Made by a program: the position numbers and the translations under genes. Shown piece after piece: positions 55,518-63,309 of a stretch of DNA of 64,000 nt; the first letter of the stretch is position 1, and each line of letters begins with the position of its first letter. Origin of the DNA: Microbacterium sp. H1-D42 (lineage in GTDB: Bacteria; Actinomycetota; Actinomycetes; Actinomycetales; Microbacteriaceae); contig NZ_CP093342.1 in NCBI RefSeq assembly GCF_022637555.1, forward strand, positions 806,001 to 870,000, given 5' to 3'. The notes under the pieces are model-generated. The model was not told where the DNA came from. It saw only the letters and a program-made list of their open reading frames with translations, and did no database searches.

Positions 55518-56189
55518 ATGCCTAAGCCCACCAAGGGTCCCCGCCTCGGAGGCGGCCCCGCACACGAGCGCCTGCTTCTCGCGAACCTCGCAGCTGCGCT
55601 CTTCACCAACAAGTCGATCAAGACGACCGAGACCAAGGCGAAGCGCCTGCGTCCGCTTGCCGAGCGCCTGATCACGCTCGGCAAGCGCGGCGACCTGCAC
55701 GCGCGTCGTCGTGCGCTCACCGTGCTGCGCTCGAACAAGGACGCCCTGCACGTCCTGTTCAACGAGATCGCACCGCTGGTCGCCGAGCGTGAGGGTGGCT
55801 ACACCCGCATCACGAAGGTCGGCAACCGCAAGGGCGACAACGCGCCCATGGCCGTGATCGAGCTCGTTCTCGAGCCCGTCACGCCGAAGAAGAAGAAGGC
55901 CGCTCCGAAGGCTGAGAAGGCTGCCGCTCCGAAGGCCAAGAAGGCCGAAGAGGCTCCCGCCGAGGAGACCGCTGCCCCGGCAGCGCTCGTCGACGGTGGC
56001 TTCGGTGATGACTCGGCTGCTCCTCTCGAGGACGGCTCGGCGCCCGAGGGCTTCGACATCAAGGGCAACAAGGACTCGATGAAGTTCCACCGTCCCGATG
56101 GCCAGTGGTACGACGCGACCGTCGCAGAGGTGTGGTTCCGCACCGCTGAGGCCGCTGAGGCTGCAGGCTTCGTCGAGGCCGGCAAGTAA
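55518..56189 (+). CDS. rplQ: 50S ribosomal protein L17 with extra C-terminal domain
   Basis: 223 aa, about twice the E. coli length. Residues 1-~121 are the L17 core ([50 protein letters not shown]). Residues ~122-178 form an Ala/Lys/Glu/Pro linker. Residues ~179-221 ([21 protein letters not shown], then [18 protein letters not shown]) form a compact motif like the small 'sunset'-type domain of some actinobacterial surface and phage proteins. This extra piece is likely surface-exposed on the ribosome; its role is unknown. Confidence 0.95.
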
Positions 56190-56204
56190 GCCACCGCGTA
56201 CTGA

Positions 56205-56243
56205 AGAGCCCGCCGCTCCCTTTCGGGGCGGCGGGCTTTTTCG
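56205..56243. terminator. Intrinsic terminator of the alpha operon
   Basis: AGCCCGCCGC (56207-56216) pairs with GCGGCGGGCT (56228-56237), with further CCC/GGG pairs inside, and is followed by TTTTT on the plus strand. It lies between convergent genes and may also serve the ligase gene on the minus strand. Confidence 0.92.
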
Positions 56244-56262
56244 TGCCCTCGCGGCTCGGCCG

Positions 56263-57837
56263 TTACAAGGCAGCCCGCAGATCCTTGCGCAGGATCTTGC
56301 CGGAGCTCGACTTGGGCACCACGTCGATGAACTCCACCAGGCGCACCTTCTCGTGCGGTGCGACCCGTGCCGTGACGAAGTCCATCACGTCCTGCTCAGA
56401 GAGCTCCGCACCCTGCTGGCGGACGACGTACGCCTTGGGCACCTCCTGGCCGTCCTCGTCGTTCACGCCGATCACGGCCGCGTCGGCGATGCCGGGGTGC
56501 TCCAGCAGCAGAGCCTCCAGCACGGCGGGCGCCACCTGATAGCCCTTGTACTTGATCAGCTCCTTGAGCCGGTCGACGATCCGGTAGATGCCGTCAGCGG
56601 TGACGGTCGCGATGTCTCCGGTGCGCAGCCAGCCATCAGCATCCAACATCTCCGCCGTGGCCTCGGGTCGGCCGAGGTAGCCGGTCATGATCTGCGGTCC
56701 GCGCACCCACAGCTCGCCGGGCTCGCTCGCGCCTTCGGCCGGGACGTCGACGTCGTGGCCGGTCTCGGGGTCGACGATGCGCGCCTCGGTGTTCGGCACC
56801 AGCGGCCCGATCGAGGACTTGTCGATGTCGGTGCGTCCGGCCGGGATGATGTTCACGGCCGGGCTGGTCTCGGTCATGCCGTAGCCCTGCACCACCTCGA
56901 CGTGCAGTCGATGCTCGACCGCGGTGGCGAGTGCGCCGTCGAGCGGTGCCGCACCCGAGAAGATGACCTTCACCGCAGACAGGTCGTACTGGTCGACGAT
57001 CGGGTGCTTGGCGAGGGCCACTGCGATCGGAGGGGCGACGAACACCCAGGTCGTGCGGTGCTCCTGGATGATCCGCAGGAACTCCAGCAGGTCGAACTTG
57101 GGCATTGTCACCAGGCCCGCCCGCCTGCGCATGGCGAAGTTCAGCAGCACGGTCATGCCGTAGATGTGGAAGAACGGCAGGACGGCCAGGATGCGGTCGT
57201 CCGAGTCGATGGTGGTCATCGGGATCACCTGGGCGACGTTGGCGACCAGGTTGCGGTGCGTGAGCATCACGCCCTTCGGACGCCCGGTGGTGCCGGAGGA
57301 GTAGGGGAGCACGGCGAGGTGCGTCGCCGGGTCGAAGTTGACGTCGGGGGCGGGATGCCCCTCACCGAGCAGTTCGCGCAGGTTCGGGTGCCCTTCGGCG
57401 CCGTCGAGCACGATCAGATGGTCATCGGCGATGCCGCGCTTCGCAGCGGCGGCCTTCGCGCCTGGCAGCAGCGGAGAGACCGTGATGAGCCACTCCGCGT
57501 CGGCATCCTCGAGCTGGTTCGCGATCTCGTCGGGGGTGTAAAGCGAGTTGATGGTGGTCGCGGTCGCTCCGGCGCGGAGGATGCCGTGGAACACGGTCGC
57601 GAAAGCGGGCACGTTCGGGCACAGGACGCCGACGCGGTCGCCGACCCCGATGCCGCGTGCGGCCAGTGCACCGGCGAACAGGTTGATCTGTCCCACCAGC
57701 TGACGGTACGTGGTCTCGGCGCCCGACGTGCCGTCGATGATCGCGATGCGATCGAGATCGGTCTCATCGAGTCCGCCGAAGAGGTACTCGTAGATCGAGA
57801 CGTCAGGGATCTCGACATCGGGAAGGGTGCTGCGCAT
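56263..57837 (-). CDS. Acyl-CoA synthetase (4-coumarate-CoA ligase-like)
   Basis: A 524-aa ANL-superfamily adenylating enzyme. ATP/AMP motifs are YSSGTTGRPKGVMLTH, VQGYGMTETSP, GWLRTGDIATVTADG and the C-terminal lysine motif SSGKILRKDL, all intact. It activates a carboxylic acid to acyl-AMP and then the CoA thioester. The overall pattern resembles plant-type 4CL or fatty-acyl ligases, not MenE, so I do not assign it to menaquinone synthesis. ATG 57837 follows AAGGAG. Substrate unknown. Confidence 0.88.
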   Translation of the reverse strand: MRSTLPDVEIPDVSIYEYLFGGLDETDLDRIAIIDGTSGAETTYRQLVGQINLFAGALAARGIGVGDRVGVLCPNVPAFATVFHGILRAGATATTINSLYTPDEIANQLEDADAEWLITVSPLLPGAKAAAAKRGIADDHLIVLDGAEGHPNLRELLGEGHPAPDVNFDPATHLAVLPYSSGTTGRPKGVMLTHRNLVANVAQVIPMTTIDSDDRILAVLPFFHIYGMTVLLNFAMRRRAGLVTMPKFDLLEFLRIIQEHRTTWVFVAPPIAVALAKHPIVDQYDLSAVKVIFSGAAPLDGALATAVEHRLHVEVVQGYGMTETSPAVNIIPAGRTDIDKSSIGPLVPNTEARIVDPETGHDVDVPAEGASEPGELWVRGPQIMTGYLGRPEATAEMLDADGWLRTGDIATVTADGIYRIVDRLKELIKYKGYQVAPAVLEALLLEHPGIADAAVIGVNDEDGQEVPKAYVVRQQGAELSEQDVMDFVTARVAPHEKVRLVEFIDVVPKSSSGKILRKDLRAAL

Positions 57838-57911: not shown

Positions 57912-59171
57912 TCAGATCTCGCTGCCGACCGGATCATTCAGCCGGTAGCGGCTGCCTGGGCGCCCCTTCGTGGCGTAGTCCAGGGTGCGGATCGCGCGTC
58001 CGGTGCTGGCCAGGTACTCCAGGTAGCGCCTCGCGCTCACCCGTGAGATAGACAGTGAGTCGCCGATCTCCGTCGCCGAGGCATCGGGCTGCTCGCCCAG
58101 CGCCTCGACCACGCGCTCGAGGGTCTCAGCGCTCAGACCCTTGGGGATGCCATCGCGCTGGCGGAACGCGATGATCGCATCCGCCGCCTCCACCCGGCGC
58201 ACGACGTCGTGCAGCTCGGTGTGATCGCGCAGCAGCAGAGTCGCAGCTCCCACGGTGGTGCGCACCGTGCTTCGGGCGACCACGACCCGGCTGCCGAGGA
58301 TCAGCGGCCGCCCGGCGTCCTCGCCCTCCTGCAGCGCCTGGTAGACATCCGGCGGCAGTACATCGATCGCCGCAGCCCCGGTGAGCTCTCCGGCAGCCGT
58401 CTGCAGGAACCGCGCGGCGGCATCATTGGCCAGCGTGATGATGCCGCGCTCATCCACCGTGATGACGCCCTCGCTGAGGCCGTGCAGCGTGGTCTGCTGG
58501 TTCTGCACTAGCGCGGTGATCTGATGCGGCTCCAGTCGGTGGATGCGTCGCCGGATCACCGAGGTCACCCAGGCCGCGCCGAGCACACCCAGCAGCACGG
58601 CTGCGACCATGGTCGCGATCAGCCAGGCGAGGTTCGTCAGGAACTCGTCGTTCAGGTTCTGTTCGAGGATTCCGACCGACACCGTGCCGATGACTTCGCC
58701 GTCGTCACCGAAGATCGGCACCTTCACCCGCCACGACGGCCCGAGCGTGCCGGTCTGGGTGCCGGTGTAGATCTTGCCCGAGAGTGGGATCGATGCGTCG
58801 GTCGAGACGGGATGCCCGATGCGGTCGACGTTGGGGTGGGAGTATCGGATGCCATCGGCATTTGCCACCACGACGTAGGCGAGGTCCGACGAGGTGCGGA
58901 TGACCTCGGCGACGGGCTGGATCGCGGCCGAGGGGTCGGCGTCGTCGAAGGCGTCGAGCACTGTGGGCAGCTGTGAGAACGACAGCGCGACCGCCATCAT
59001 GCGCTCCTGATACGCCTCACGCAGCGCGCGCTCCTGGAAGGCGCCGGCGGCGATGCCGGCGGCCAGCGTCACCAGGCACACGATCAGGGCCTGCAGCAGG
59101 ATCAGCTGCACCCGCAGCGACATGCTGCCGTCCTGCGTCTTCAGCGACGCGCGCTTCGTCTTCGAGGCCAC
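57912..59171 (-). CDS. Membrane sensor-PAS-HTH fusion (CitA-like sensor joined to a CitB-like DNA-binding domain)
   Basis: A 419-aa protein with unusual architecture. Residues ~21-44 and ~181-206 are membrane helices. Residues ~45-178 form a CitA/DcuS-like extracytoplasmic sensor (AYVVVANADGIRYSHPNVDRIGHPV, GTVSVGILE). Residues ~225-318 are PAS (TTLHGLSEGVITVDERGIITLANDAA, LLLRDHTEL). Where a kinase would continue into its H-box, the chain passes at ~325-340 directly into the C-terminal part of CitB/DcuR regulators (GIPKGLSAETLERVVEAL, ISRVSARRYLEYLASTGRA, GRPGSRYRL). No phospho-acceptor histidine, ATPase or receiver is present. It is divergent from tctCBA. GTG 59171 is used; ATG 59123 is an alternative. 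Confidence 0.85.
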   Translation of the reverse strand: MASKTKRASLKTQDGSMSLRVQLILLQALIVCLVTLAAGIAAGAFQERALREAYQERMMAVALSFSQLPTVLDAFDDADPSAAIQPVAEVIRTSSDLAYVVVANADGIRYSHPNVDRIGHPVSTDASIPLSGKIYTGTQTGTLGPSWRVKVPIFGDDGEVIGTVSVGILEQNLNDEFLTNLAWLIATMVAAVLLGVLGAAWVTSVIRRRIHRLEPHQITALVQNQQTTLHGLSEGVITVDERGIITLANDAAARFLQTAAGELTGAAAIDVLPPDVYQALQEGEDAGRPLILGSRVVVARSTVRTTVGAATLLLRDHTELHDVVRRVEAADAIIAFRQRDGIPKGLSAETLERVVEALGEQPDASATEIGDSLSISRVSARRYLEYLASTGRAIRTLDYATKGRPGSRYRLNDPVGSEI

Positions 59172-59226: not shown

Positions 59227-59262
59227 CGACCAATACTTTCGTAACGTCGACCAATGATTTCG
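59227..59262. promoter_or_regulatory. 15-bp direct repeat in the tctC/regulator intergenic region
   Basis: CGACCAATACTTTCG (59227-59241) and CGACCAATGATTTCG (59248-59262) match at 13 of 15 positions. The period of 21 bases is two helical turns. A tandem site of this geometry suits a dimeric HTH regulator, and the divergent sensor-HTH protein is the natural candidate. Confidence 0.6.
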
Positions 59263-59330
59263 GAAGCAGAGGTCACCTCCCCGCGGTGCATACGGTTGCC
59301 AGCATCCCGACAGCGCTCAAGGAGGAGCAC

Positions 59331-60350
59331 ATGAACAAGACACGCACAGCACTCGTCGCCATCGCCGCCATCGCGGCCCTGGCGCTCACCGGCTGCTCGG
59401 CCCAGGGCGGCGGCACGGGCGACAAGCCCGCCGAAGGGGGCGATGCGAAGACGAGCTTCTCGGACGTCTCGATCATCGTCCCCGCAGACCCCGGCGGCGG
59501 CTGGGACCAGACCGGTCGCGCCATCTCGAAGGTGATCACCGACGAGGGCATCGTCGGCACCGCCGCAGTCACCAACGTCGGCGGAGCCGGCGGCACGATC
59601 GGGCTCGCCCAGCTGGCGAACGTCAAGGACCCTGCCACGCTGATGGTCAACGGGCTGGTCATGGTCGGCGCGATCGAGACCAACGGCTCGCAGGTGCGCC
59701 TGGAGGACACGACGCCGATCGCCCGCCTCACCGACGAGGCACTGGTTGTCGTCGTTCCCGCCGACTCGAAGTACAAGACTCTTGAAGACCTCGTCGAGGA
59801 CATCGTCGACAAGGGACAGGCGATCACCGTCACCGGAGGCTCGGCGGGCGGCGCTGACCACATCCTCGCGGGGCTCATGCTCGAGGCAGCCGGCCTCGAC
59901 GCCACCGAGATCCCCGCGAAGCTGAACTACACGCCCAACGCCGGAGGCGGCGAGGCCGTGTCGCTGATCATCGGCAACAAGGTCGCCGCCGGCATCTCGG
60001 GTGTCGCCGAGTTCCAGCAGCACATCGAGAAGGGCACCATGCGCGCGCTCGCCGTCTCGGGCGCCGAGCCGGTCGCCCAGCTGCCGGACGTGCCCACGAT
60101 CACCGATGCCGGCTACGACGTCGTGCTCACCAACTGGCGCGGAGTGATCGCCCCCGGTGGGATCTCCGACGCCGAGCGGGCCGAGCTGGAGCGCATCGTC
60201 ACCGAGATGCACGACACCGGCGCCTGGACGACCGAGCTCGAGACGAAGGGGTGGGCGGATGCCTTCCTGGTCGGCGACGACCTGGACGCCTTCGTCGAGG
60301 AGAGCATCACGGATGTCACCGGCACGCTGAAGAACATCGGACTGATCTGA
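59331..60350 (+). CDS. tctC: Tripartite tricarboxylate transporter substrate-binding lipoprotein TctC
   Basis: A 339-aa binding protein. The lipobox LTGC gives Cys22 for lipidation. The Bug/TctC fold shows VSIIVPADPGGGWDQTGRAI, NVGGAGGTIGLAQLAN and TGGSAGGADHILAG. It captures a carboxylate such as citrate or a related acid outside the cell for TctAB. ATG 59331 follows GGAGGAG. First gene of tctCBA; a -10-like TACGGT (59291-59296) without a good -35 suggests activator dependence. Confidence 0.93.
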   Translation: MNKTRTALVAIAAIAALALTGCSAQGGGTGDKPAEGGDAKTSFSDVSIIVPADPGGGWDQTGRAISKVITDEGIVGTAAVTNVGGAGGTIGLAQLANVKDPATLMVNGLVMVGAIETNGSQVRLEDTTPIARLTDEALVVVVPADSKYKTLEDLVEDIVDKGQAITVTGGSAGGADHILAGLMLEAAGLDATEIPAKLNYTPNAGGGEAVSLIIGNKVAAGISGVAEFQQHIEKGTMRALAVSGAEPVAQLPDVPTITDAGYDVVLTNWRGVIAPGGISDAERAELERIVTEMHDTGAWTTELETKGWADAFLVGDDLDAFVEESITDVTGTLKNIGLI

Positions 60351-60351
60351 C

Positions 60352-60897
60352 ATGACCGCCCCGCTCACCGGGGCGAACGGGCGGGCCGAGAGCACTCGGC
60401 CCGCCCCACGGGTTCCCATCGGAGAACTCGTCTTCGCCCTGTTCATGCTCGCCCTCGGCGTCTTCGCCGTGATCGGCGTCTTCAGCATCCACGTTCCGGT
60501 CGGCGTCCAGGTCGGCCCGCGGGTCTTCCCGATCTTCGTCGCCGTGGTGCTGCTCGGCTCGGCCGTCGCCGTGCTCATCGGCCTCTTCCACGGAGAGCGC
60601 GCTGAGGTCGAAGATGGGGAGGACATCGATCCGAACGCCACGACCGACTGGCTGACCCTCGCCAAGATCGTCGGTGCCCTGGTGGCACACCTGCTGCTGA
60701 TCGACGTGATCGGCTGGGCGCCGGCAGCCGCACTGCTGTTCGGCGTCGTCGCCTGGGCGCTCGGTGCGAAACGCTGGTGGCTCGGGTTCGTGATCGGACT
60801 CGTCGTCGGACTGATCGTGCAGATCGTCTTCGGCGAGCTGCTGTCGCTGTCGCTGCCGCTCGGCCCCGCGCTCGGCTGGTTGGGAGGGATCCTCTGA
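60352..60897 (+). CDS. tctB: Tripartite tricarboxylate transporter small membrane subunit TctB
   Basis: A 181-aa protein with four hydrophobic segments (about residues 22-45, 55-77, 100-122 and 126-170 as a split pair) and an acidic loop [15 protein letters not shown]. Starts one base after the tctC stop and overlaps the tctA start (TGATG), so the three subunits are translationally coupled. Confidence 0.9.
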
Positions 60898-62444
60898 TGG
60901 ATGCCTGGACTCTGCTCATGGAGGGCTTCGCGACCGCACTGCAGCCGCAGTACCTCGTCTTCGCCTTCATCGGCGTGCTGATCGGCACCGCCGTCGGCGT
61001 GCTGCCTGGCATCGGCCCCGCGATGACCGTCGCACTGCTGCTGCCGCTGACCTACACGCTCGACCCCACCGCGGCGCTGATCACCTTCGCCGGCATCTAC
61101 TACGGCGGCATGTACGGCGGCTCGACCACCAGCATCCTGCTGAACACGCCAGGTGAGTCCGCCTCGATCGTCACCGCCATCGAAGGCAACAAGATGGCGA
61201 AGATGGGGCGAGGTGCCACAGCTCTCGCCACCGCCGCCATCGGCTCGTTCGTCGCCGGCACGATCGCCACGGTCGGACTCACCCTGCTCGCCCCCGTGCT
61301 CGCGTCGTTCGCCGTGGGCCTTGGTCCCGCCGACTACTTCGCGCTGATCATGATCGCCTTCATCACCGTCGGCGCATTGATCGGCAGCTCGGTCTCGCGA
61401 GGAATGCTCTCGCTGGGCGTCGGGCTGTTCCTCGGCCTGGTCGGAACCGACGTGCTCTCGGGGCAGCAGCGCTACACCATGGGTGTGCTCGCGCTCTCGG
61501 ACGGCGTGGACATCGTGCTGGTCGCGGTCGGGCTGTTCGCGGTGGGGGAGTCGCTGTACATCGCCTCGCGCCTGCGGCACGGATCCGTCGACGTCATCCC
61601 CGTCACGGGCGGGTGGCACAGCTGGATGACCAGGCAGGACTGGCGGCGCTCCTGGAAGCCATGGCTGCGCGGCACGGCGATCGGCTTCCCGATCGGCACG
61701 ATCCCCGCCGGCGGTGCTGACGTCGCGACGTTCCTGTCCTATGCGACCGAGCGCAAGCTCTCCAAGCACAAGGACGAGTTCGGCCGAGGGGCGATCGAGG
61801 GCGTGGCCGGCCCGGAATCGGCGAACAACGCGGCGGCGGCGGGCGTCCTTGTACCCCTGCTGACTCTCGGGCTGCCGACCACGGCGACGGCGGCGATCAT
61901 CCTGGTCGCCTTCCAGGCGTACGGTCTGCAGCCGGGACCGCTGCTGTTCGAGACGCAGCCGGCGCTGGTGTGGGCACTGGTGGCCAGCCTGTACCTGGGC
62001 AACGTGATCCTGATCATCCTGAACCTGCCGCTGGTGGGCATGTGGGTGAAGCTGCTGCAGATCCCGCGCCCCTACCTCTACGCGGGCATCCTGCTGTTCG
62101 CGGCGTTCGGGGCGTACGCGCTGAACTTCGCCGTCATCGACATCCTGATGCTGGTGATCATCGGCGTGCTCGGCTACTTCATGCGCCGGTACGGGTATCC
62201 GGTCGCGCCGCTGGTGGTCGGCATGATCCTCGGCCCGATGGGCGAGGAGTTCCTGCGCAAGGCGCTGCAGCTCAGCCAGGGCGACCTGTCGACGCTCGTC
62301 ATGCAGCCGTTCGCCGCCTCGGCGTACGGCGTGCTCGCACTGCTCGTCGTCGGCGGGCTGTGGCTGCGCCGGCGCCAGCAGCGCTACGAGCAGCACCTCA
62401 CCGAGACGATCGCCCTGCCGATCAAGTCGGACCAGGAGGTCTGA
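60897..62444 (+). CDS. tctA: Tripartite tricarboxylate transporter large membrane subunit TctA
   Basis: A 515-aa integral membrane carrier with about 11-12 helices. The family signature [24 protein letters not shown] is followed by [22 protein letters not shown]. The internal counterpart [20 protein letters not shown] and [27 protein letters not shown] segment ([11 protein letters not shown]) is also visible. Driven by ion gradients rather than ATP. ATG 60897 follows GGGAGG. A weak hairpin (62446-62474) follows. Confidence 0.94.
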
Positions 62445-62445
62445 G

Positions 62446-62474
62446 CGCGGCAGCGCCTGCGAGCGGTTGCCGCG
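62446..62474 (+). terminator. Weak hairpin after tctA
   Basis: CGCGGCA (62446-62452) pairs with TGCCGCG (62468-62474) across a 15-base loop, two bases after the tctA stop. Confidence 0.4.
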
Positions 62475-62480
62475 TCAAGC

Positions 62481-62552
62481 GCGCGAGGCTCCCGGCGATA
62501 GTCTGATCTGTGTGAGTACAGAGGATCAGGCCATCACCCGGGAGCCTCGCGC
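62481..62552. repeat. 15-bp inverted repeat straddling the TauE start
   Basis: GCGCGAGGCTCCCGG (62481-62495) and its exact reverse complement (62538-62552) flank 42 bases that contain the -10 hexamer and the GTG start codon. The right arm lies inside the coding sequence. Confidence 0.8.
62499..62504 (+). promoter_or_regulatory. -10 box of the leaderless TauE transcript
   Basis: TAGTCT is followed by 7 bases and GTG 62512. Confidence 0.5.
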
Positions 62553-63309
62553 ATACTTCACGTTCATCTTCATCGGGCTGTCGGCCGGCCTCCTGTCCGG
62601 CCTGTTCGGCGTCGGCGGCGGCACCGTCATCGTGCCGCTGCTCGTGCTGATGCTGCACTACAACCAGCGGCTCAGCGCCGGCACCTCGCTCGCCGCCATC
62701 GTGCCGACGGCGAGCGTCGGCGTCATCTCGTACGCGCTGGCGGATGCGGTCGCCTGGATCCCCGCGCTGATCCTCGCCGCCGGGGCTGTCGTGGGCGCGC
62801 AGATCGGCACGCGGCTGCTGCCGAAGGTCTCGCAGACGGCGCTGCGCTGGGGTTTCGTGGCCTTTCTGGTTGTGGTCATCGTCAGTCTGTTCGTCGTGAT
62901 TCCATCGCGTGATGCGGAGCTGATCCTCGGCTGGGGCAACGGCATCGGTCTTGCCGCGGTCGGCCTGGTCACCGGCGTCATCGCCGGGCTCATCGGCGTC
63001 GGCGGTGGTGTCGTCGTCGTGCCAGTGCTGATGCTGGTGTTCGGCACCAGCGACCTCGTCGCCAAGGGCACCTCGCTGCTGATGATGATCCCGACCGCGG
63101 TGTCCGGCACCATCGGCAACCTGCGCAACCGCAACGTCGATCTTCGCGCGGCGGCATTCATCGGCCTGTCGGCCTGCACGACCACCGCGCTGGGCGCGTG
63201 GCTGGCCACGCTGGTCGATCCGCCGCTGGGCAACATGCTCTTCGCCGGCTACCTCGTCTTCATCGCGGTGCAGATGGCTGTCAAGGCGATCCGCGGACGC
63301 AGGCGCTGA
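62512..63309 (+). CDS. TauE/SafE family anion exporter
   Basis: A 265-aa membrane protein with about eight helices. The duplicated family motif appears as GLLSGLFGVGGGTVIVPLLVL and again as GVIAGLIGVGGGVVVVPVLML. Such proteins export sulfite, sulfoacetate or similar anions; the substrate here is not known. GTG 62512 is set by TAGTCT 7 bases upstream and by the start of the hydrophobic core; no Shine-Dalgarno is seen. Confidence 0.9.
   Translation: MSTEDQAITREPRAYFTFIFIGLSAGLLSGLFGVGGGTVIVPLLVLMLHYNQRLSAGTSLAAIVPTASVGVISYALADAVAWIPALILAAGAVVGAQIGTRLLPKVSQTALRWGFVAFLVVVIVSLFVVIPSRDAELILGWGNGIGLAAVGLVTGVIAGLIGVGGGVVVVPVLMLVFGTSDLVAKGTSLLMMIPTAVSGTIGNLRNRNVDLRAAAFIGLSACTTTALGAWLATLVDPPLGNMLFAGYLVFIAVQMAVKAIRGRRR

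Follow-up and report, generated by a model that had tools for sequence, protein, structure and literature searches.

A Microbacterium gene beside tctCBA with the apparent origin of a CitA-type kinase fused to a CitB-type regulator, predicted to encode a membrane-bound one-component transcription factor

The window analyzed here is a stretch of 64,000 nucleotides of the Microbacterium sp. H1-D42 genome (contig NZ_CP093342.1, positions 806,001 to 870,000 of the forward strand), in which the genes tctC, tctB and tctA lie divergent from a single regulator gene that joins the sensor part of a CitA/DcuS-type kinase to the DNA-binding part of a CitB/DpiA-type regulator. In window coordinates, the features of this locus are as follows.

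57912..59171, reverse strand: fused one-component regulator gene, 419 aa, GTG start (open reading frame list, Pfam/NCBIfam, genus matches)
57942..58145, reverse strand: CitB/DpiA-type DNA-binding HTH, residues 343-410 (NCBIfam DcuR, conserved core)
58179..58190, reverse strand: crossover, about residues 328-331, with kinase-derived RDHTELHDVVRRV before it and regulator-derived DAIIAFRQR-IPKGLSAETL after it (junction alignments)
58275..58493, reverse strand: PAS domain, cytoplasmic, residues 227-299 (Pfam E 7.9e-9; PDB CitA/DcuS PAS chains)
58644..59033, reverse strand: sCache_3_2 sensor (CitA/DcuS-type), extracytoplasmic, residues 47-176 (Pfam E 8.6e-30)
59229..59244, forward strand: upstream operator-like site ACCAATACTTTCGTAA, an exact match of ACCAATNNTTNCNNAA
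59250..59265, forward strand: downstream operator-like site ACCAATGATTTCGGAA, 21 bp from the upstream site
59291..59296, forward strand: candidate -10 box TACGGT of the tctC promoter (pattern match), starting 39 bp after the CAAT of the downstream site
59331..60350, forward strand: tctC, solute-binding protein (Pfam TctC), probably starting at the ATG at 59331, which is preceded by AAGGAGGAG
60352..60897, forward strand: tctB (Pfam TctB E 3.4e-19)
60897..62444, forward strand: tctA (Pfam TctA E 1.8e-152 on the frame from 60846; start chosen by reading)

The regulator gene is one unbroken frame of 419 residues with no internal stop, starting either at GTG (59169-59171) or at the codon of M17 (59121-59123), a residue that is invariant in all 35 aligned homologues. 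Pfam and hydropathy give the order helix-sensor-helix-PAS-HTH, with two membrane segments (about residues 15-47 and 176-207) flanking the Cache domain, and a PDB search returned the sensor domains of CitA and DcuS as well as the cytoplasmic PAS domains of both. The NCBIfam DcuS/MalK kinase model matches only residues 17-328 and the DcuR model only residues 337-412 (E 3.3e-10, far under the cut-off set for the full protein). Pfam HTH_64 (DpiA-like) scores 24.3 bits at residues 366-408, below its cut-off of 27 bits, as it also does in two true regulators of relatives (23.1 and 18 bits). HisKA, SPOB_a, HATPase and receiver families are absent from the 13 Pfam families listed at E<=1, a threshold at which the HMMER filters discard most matches above 0.1; with the same library, SPOB_a and HATPase_c were detected in three of three kinases and Response_reg in two of two regulators of two-component relatives. 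An earlier note, made from the bare sequence, had read the same layout of two helices, CitA/DcuS-like sensor, PAS domain and CitB/DcuR HTH, on which Pfam, NCBIfam and hydropathy now agree, and had claimed that the H-box, ATPase and receiver are missing, none of which Pfam or NCBIfam finds here. The hidden kinase or receiver for which it proposed a domain search is rejected, as neither program gives either one.

The protein thus divides between known classes. It has the sCache_3_2 domain between two helices and the PAS domain of a CitA/DcuS kinase, without SPOB_a or HATPase_c, and the DpiA-like HTH of a CitB/DcuR/DpiA regulator, without a receiver bearing a phosphoacceptor Asp. By sequence it has what defines a membrane-bound one-component regulator: a sensor and a DNA-binding output in one polypeptide, membrane segments, and no phosphotransfer domains. 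Databases name proteins of this family either "PAS domain-containing protein" or "two-component system CitB family sensor kinase", and the latter name is misleading.

Apart from the fused gene, searches of the 3.66 Mb genome of H1-D42, which is 99.99% complete, detected no CitA-type kinase or CitB-type regulator. The fused protein itself gives one match. A CitA-type kinase probe matches the fused sensor half, and its seven other matches cover probe residues 322-552 only; a CitB-type regulator probe matches the fused HTH best, and its 22 other matches begin in the receiver, 21 of them ending by probe residue 148 and one, which reaches residue 196, being a receiver with a GerE (LuxR-type) domain. 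A leftover two-component partner is rejected because, elsewhere in the genome, both probes match partial regions.

The comparison of loci drew on three fetched sets: full-length fused loci other than that of H1-D42 (20 of 22), kinase or broken loci of the genus (20), and kinase loci from other genera of the family (20 of 26). A CitA-type kinase and a CitB-type regulator lie next to tctCBA in other species and genera of the family, as the earlier note had expected of ancestral pairs. In 38 intact two-component loci, the kinase has 517-569 residues (counted from residue 16) and the CitB-type regulator is encoded in the same direction; frames taken from the first start overlap by exactly 4 bases in 21 of the 38 and by more in 16, and are separated by a 126-base gap in L100. 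The tctCBA genes are divergent in 34 of these loci, run in the same direction in L046, and are not nearby in L044, L112 and L114. Kinase halves of relatives have up to 62% identity to residues 16-333 of the fused protein, and regulator HTHs up to 66% identity to its HTH half. One locus of the genus (L049/L133, genome G118) has a kinase broken into at least two frames beside regulator and tctCBA frames that look whole.

The fused gene is divergent from tctCBA in each of the 20 fused loci that were fetched, and none of those stretches holds a second match to the fused HTH. A TauE/SafE permease gene follows tctA (62467-63309) and is present in all 20, and was not seen in 39 fetched two-component loci (the contig of L100 ends just past tctA, and three have no tct genes). 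On its other side, the H1-D42 locus adjoins a ribosomal block ending in rplQ (55518-57837); rplQ occurs in the fetched stretch of 17 of the 20 fused loci, and therefore the chromosomal site looks stable.

Alignment of the three kinds of protein locates the junction. Kinases read RDHTELHxxxRxxDGAQS-LTxGLRAQAHEFAN in this region, regulators xIDALMxxxxxxLPKGLSAETL, and fused proteins RDHTELHDVVRRVEAADAIIAFRQRxGLPKGLSAETL. At residue 329, all 18 near kinases have Gly and 20 of the 21 fused proteins have Ala; at residue 331, 16 of the 18 kinases have Gln, but all 21 fused proteins have Asp, corresponding to the Asp of the regulators; therefore, the crossover is placed at about residues 328-331, inside the interval of 325-340 named in the earlier note. 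Calculated by hand from protein lengths, the fusion would have removed about 200-250 residues of the kinase and 130-140 residues of the regulator, or about 1.0-1.2 kb. Twelve positions that are invariant and specific to fused proteins fall within residues 322-336, and 11 more are found at 60, 103, 185, 220, 224, 228, 289, 291, 341, 353 and 410. The HTH core SRVSxRRYLE, taken as the recognition helix, is identical in all 21 fused proteins and all 18 regulators. This pattern suggests that the signal helix was remodelled and that the DNA-reading surface was left unchanged. An unbroken heptad across the junction has no special support, the window of residues 316-340 ranking 83 of 350.

Three trees, all drawn with midpoint roots, compare the fused loci with their two-component relatives. 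The sensor-half tree has 59 rows, comprising 21 fused proteins (H1-D42 included) and 38 kinases, L049 and L050 having been dropped as broken; the fused proteins form a clade (100/99) that joins the kinases of L098 and L099 (100/97) within a 39-row group of the fused loci and 18 two-component loci (100/100). In the HTH tree, which has only 90 columns and several long branches, the fused clade (99/99) and the same 39-row group (100/97) recur, the regulator nearest to the fused HTHs being left unresolved; an AU test of the fused HTHs with those of L098 and L099 as one clade gave p 0.209. The TctCBA tree, built by a quick method that gives a single support value, has 56 rows; in it, the fused rows and the same 39 rows each have a support of 99. 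The closest relatives are L098 and L099 by the sensor half, and by TctCBA the Microbacterium loci L031-L037 are nearer (87, not starred). Since the sensor half, the HTH half and the operon all point to one kind of locus, one fusion explains the sample. Thus the origin that the earlier note had proposed, an internal deletion joining a kinase gene to a regulator gene, gains both existing loci of the parental type and three trees that group the fused clade with them. By these alignments and trees, the fusion origin, like the anatomy of the fused protein, is well supported. It is highly improbable that the one-gene form is ancestral and the pairs derived from it, or that the halves come from unrelated systems. 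Such readings can draw on the midpoint roots, because of which the trees by themselves give no direction, and on the HTH tree, which does not settle the nearest regulator; against them, the fused loci fall with the same 18 two-component loci, and not with the remaining ones, whether judged by either half or by tctCBA, and full-length fused copies were found in one genus, whereas kinase pairs were found in many.

The distribution of the fused form was surveyed at several depths. Among 149 Microbacterium genomes, the same fusion is present at full length in 23, H1-D42 included, and one further genome (G042) has a broken copy. Six of the 23 matches contain one TGA, which is most likely the natural stop, because the five of them fetched at length are open to residue 413-415. 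Searches of 398 genomes of the family (E<=1e-60) and 396 genomes of the phylum (E<=1e-30), each scoring at most four candidates per genome, gave full-length matches in H1-D42 and G076, of the same genus, and in H1-D42 only, respectively. A scan of a collection with one genome per species (84,980 in all), which requires one of two peptide patterns taken from the fused family and so would miss distant forms, returned 33 loci, of which 30 hold the fused gene at full length, two (L098 and L099) hold kinases, and that of Microbacterium sp. 69-10 is broken. The records of the 30 are all named Microbacterium except Actinomycetales bacterium SN12, and no stop falls within any match save one at the very end of L158. 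The junction helix is present in all 30, as RVEAADAIIAF or RVDAADAIIAF in 28 and RVETADAIIAF in two. Fused (24 genomes, broken copy included) and kinase-type (19) loci never occur in the same genome among the 149, which gives p 0.028 with kinship ignored; with only the seven near kinase loci, and kinship again ignored, p is 0.28.

In eight of eight pairs of fused genes, whole-gene dN/dS is 0.067-0.121 and does not exceed 0.175 in any domain, and residues 310-345 are the most conserved stretch, with a mean pairwise identity of 0.94 compared to 0.79 overall; sensor, PAS domain, junction and HTH are all under purifying selection. The chance that the gene is an assembly error or a decaying pseudogene is next to nil: the broken copy of Microbacterium sp. 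69-10 (L050, also L166) shows that such decay can be found, but the same junction in many independent genomes refutes both readings, and the low dN/dS and the open frame of H1-D42 speak against them as well. For the same reason, the loss of about 1 kb in assembly, which the earlier note had raised against its own claim, fails as an explanation, since the layout recurs in many independent assemblies. In that broken copy, which is in G042, the fused gene falls into two frames, neither tctC nor tctB was found, and tctA is shortened, while the ribosomal, TauE and mao-type neighbors are in place.

Regulated proteolysis, an established route for membrane-bound regulators, would permit the same fusion protein to be cut on signal by a protease that releases PAS-HTH from the membrane to act as a soluble factor. 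This is unlikely, given that sensor, PAS domain, junction and HTH are all conserved by selection and that the gene adjoins its likely target, an arrangement that would suit a tethered factor. A regulator that acts while in the membrane is the preferred reading, and the DNA between the two divergent genes offers it candidate sites. The 3.66 Mb genome contains two exact matches of ACCAATNNTTNCNNAA, both between the regulator gene and tctC, and none of the reversed control. By a looser pattern, both sites are found 20 or 21 bp apart in 29 of the 30 full-length fused loci of the species scan and in 20 of the 21 fused loci of the trees (a set that overlaps the 30), counts that describe rather than test, because these same sequences are where the motif was first noticed by eye, with the patterns fitted later, so that the counting was not blind. 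By pattern, L070 and L151 lack the second site. Related sites also stand ahead of tctC in the nearest two-component loci. All seven of the near two-component loci L031-L037 have CAATAGTT or CAATACTT and a half-site, TTAGTT or TTACTT, that lies 21-22 bp on by pattern start and 19-20 bp on in register. Of 11 near two-component loci from other genera, eight have one site and two have two; L098, one of the two nearest kinases, has none by pattern, though CCAATAGTTACGTA is visible there, and none was found by pattern in two sets of more distant two-component loci (0 of 12 and 0 of 7).

A TANNNT box was found in seven of the 20 fused loci with both sites, at 39 bp from the CAAT in all seven, and none was found in the other 13; the candidate -10 box of tctC is weak because it occurs at that place in only 7 of 20. 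L031 and L032 have a box at the same spacing if a two-base offset of the half-site is allowed. The HTH might instead mainly repress, or activate constitutively, its action being lifted or merely tuned by citrate, a decidedly unlikely reading that fits sites lying upstream of the regulator's own gene as well, weakly defined tctC promoter elements, and a sequence that does not tell activation from repression. It fits less well with the downstream site standing 39 bp before the -10 box in every fused locus that has the box, a spacing that suits an activator, and with the activation of tctCBA by CitAB in Corynebacterium glutamicum, described in excerpts of a review (PMC3353115).

The ligand of the regulator can be guessed from the Cache domain. 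Residues R109, H112, R148 and K150 align with R66, H69, R107 and K109 of Klebsiella CitA (chain 2v9a) and are kept in all 59 aligned rows, kinases included. According to the same excerpts (PMC3353115), exchanging these four CitA residues for alanine weakened citrate binding, with Kd values 38- to more than 300-fold higher, and T58, S101, L102 and S124 are also listed as touching citrate; of the latter, L102 and S124 are kept in the fused protein (L143, S165), S101 is replaced with Thr (142) and T58 with Val (101). K150 aligns with Phe in DcuS and with Lys in CitA. Citrate is the first guess as the ligand, and related acids are possible.

Very probably, the fused gene encodes a membrane-bound one-component transcription factor that originated by a deletion of about 1 kb joining a citA-type kinase gene to the adjoining citB-type gene and that activates tctCBA in response to citrate without phosphotransfer. 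The deletion would have removed the H-box helix domain, the ATPase and the receiver, and the missing domains suggest that signalling proceeds without phosphorylation. The functional steps are modelled on C. glutamicum CitAB and the DcuS/CitA family: citrate or a close tricarboxylate would bind the extracytoplasmic Cache domain; the signal would be relayed by the second membrane helix to the PAS domain; the arrangement of paired HTH domains would be altered by the remodelled helix of about residues 316-337; and these domains would bind the two direct repeats that lie in tandem ahead of the tctC promoter, turning on tctCBA. In the parents, phosphorylation of the receiver would control the HTH; in the fused protein, the sensor module would provide the pairing. 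The sequence shows the domain content, the single fused clade of the three trees, the crossover, the kept ligand residues and HTH core, and the tandem sites unique to the genome; we infer the identity of the ligand, dimerization, binding of the HTH to the tandem sites, direct activation, and action while in the membrane. It is also likely that a working two-component system here collapsed naturally into a membrane one-component activator free of phosphorylation, through a single deletion that spared the sensor, the operon and the operator, the linker helix being remodelled and then frozen and close relatives of the two-component parents surviving in sister lineages.

Hybrid two-component systems place kinase and regulator in one polypeptide and retain both the kinase and the receiver. 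They share with the fused protein a sensor and an HTH in one chain, but the fused protein has no kinase or receiver by Pfam. The best NCBIfam models for its halves are those of the enterobacterial DcuS-DcuR and DpiB-DpiA systems, which have the same order of Cache, helix and PAS, whereas an H-box domain, an ATPase and a receiver were not found in the fused protein. In C. glutamicum, according to excerpts of a 2012 review (PMC3353115), citrate-induced expression of tctCBA depends on CitAB and CitB binds that promoter; CitA-CitB, which controls citH and tctCBA, has in common with the fused regulator a CitA-type sensor, a CitB-type DNA-binding domain and tctCBA as target, but consists of two proteins with phosphotransfer rather than one without kinase or receiver. 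According to that review, the exact CitB binding motif had yet to be identified in 2012; a tandem CCAAT site is the proposal made here.

The earlier note had also called the protein ToxR/CadC-like, which fits its logic only, because the topology is the reverse of that of ToxR. According to excerpts of PMC5936718, ToxR and CadC are likewise single membrane proteins that carry an extracytoplasmic sensor and a DNA-binding domain but lack a phosphoacceptor domain; their order, however, is N-terminal HTH, one helix and C-terminal sensor. The fused protein lacks the N-terminal winged HTH, single helix and C-terminal sensor of that family, and instead has its sensor loop between two helices, followed by a PAS domain and, at the C terminus, an HTH from a different family. 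Membrane one-component regulators are a known kind, from whose ToxR/CadC members the Cache-PAS-HTH order differs. The same excerpts describe one-component systems as evolutionarily older than two-component systems (PMC5936718); the unusual feature of this locus is that the change probably ran from two components to one while the operon and the operator were retained. A described fusion of this kind was not found in titles and beginnings of abstracts among the literature matches listed, from a collection that covers a minority of subscription papers.

Within one bacterial family, the two forms can be compared with the same sensor, the same operon and related DNA sites, with and without a phosphate relay. 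This makes testable what the relay contributes (gain, speed, reset) and how a PAS domain that once steered a kinase can steer a DNA-binding domain instead. The locus also supplies a candidate DNA site for CitB-type regulators, and the fused regulator could serve as a template for simple citrate biosensors.

Several other proteins were considered as second fusions. They include short CitA-like frames from elsewhere in the genus: L127-L131 are rejected, as each of the five runs into kinase sequence at its end and is accompanied in its stretch by a receiver-type regulator frame, and L126 is rejected, as it has the SPOB_a H-box domain and its frame stops before the ATPase. Six matches listed in the phylum search align past query residue 365; the five inspected are four kinases and one SpoIIE protein, and the sixth, outside those five, is a 943-aa frame of G784. 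With a G869 probe, no other long protein with a CitB-type HTH was found among 384 candidates, and an L105 probe of 457 candidates gave eight matches, all of fused length with Cache and PAS domains, both searches relying on shared 5-letter words. In the best 120 of the 648 nearest proteins, named records are Microbacterium except P0087 (Streptomyces sp. AC495_CC817), a fused-type protein of 406 aa; its record is probably misnamed, because its 73% identity to the H1-D42 protein falls within the range of Microbacterium copies. P0123 (422 aa, on a contig of 3,787 bases) is of the fused type and gives the best HTH match to a true regulator, 63% to L105; its junction, RVEAADAILAFRLR, differs slightly, and it is perhaps an early branch. 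Another output on the same Cache-PAS sensor module is seen in the same class, at positions 800-3481 of L175, where the module is joined to GAF, SpoIIE phosphatase and ATPase domains in a protein of 893 aa.
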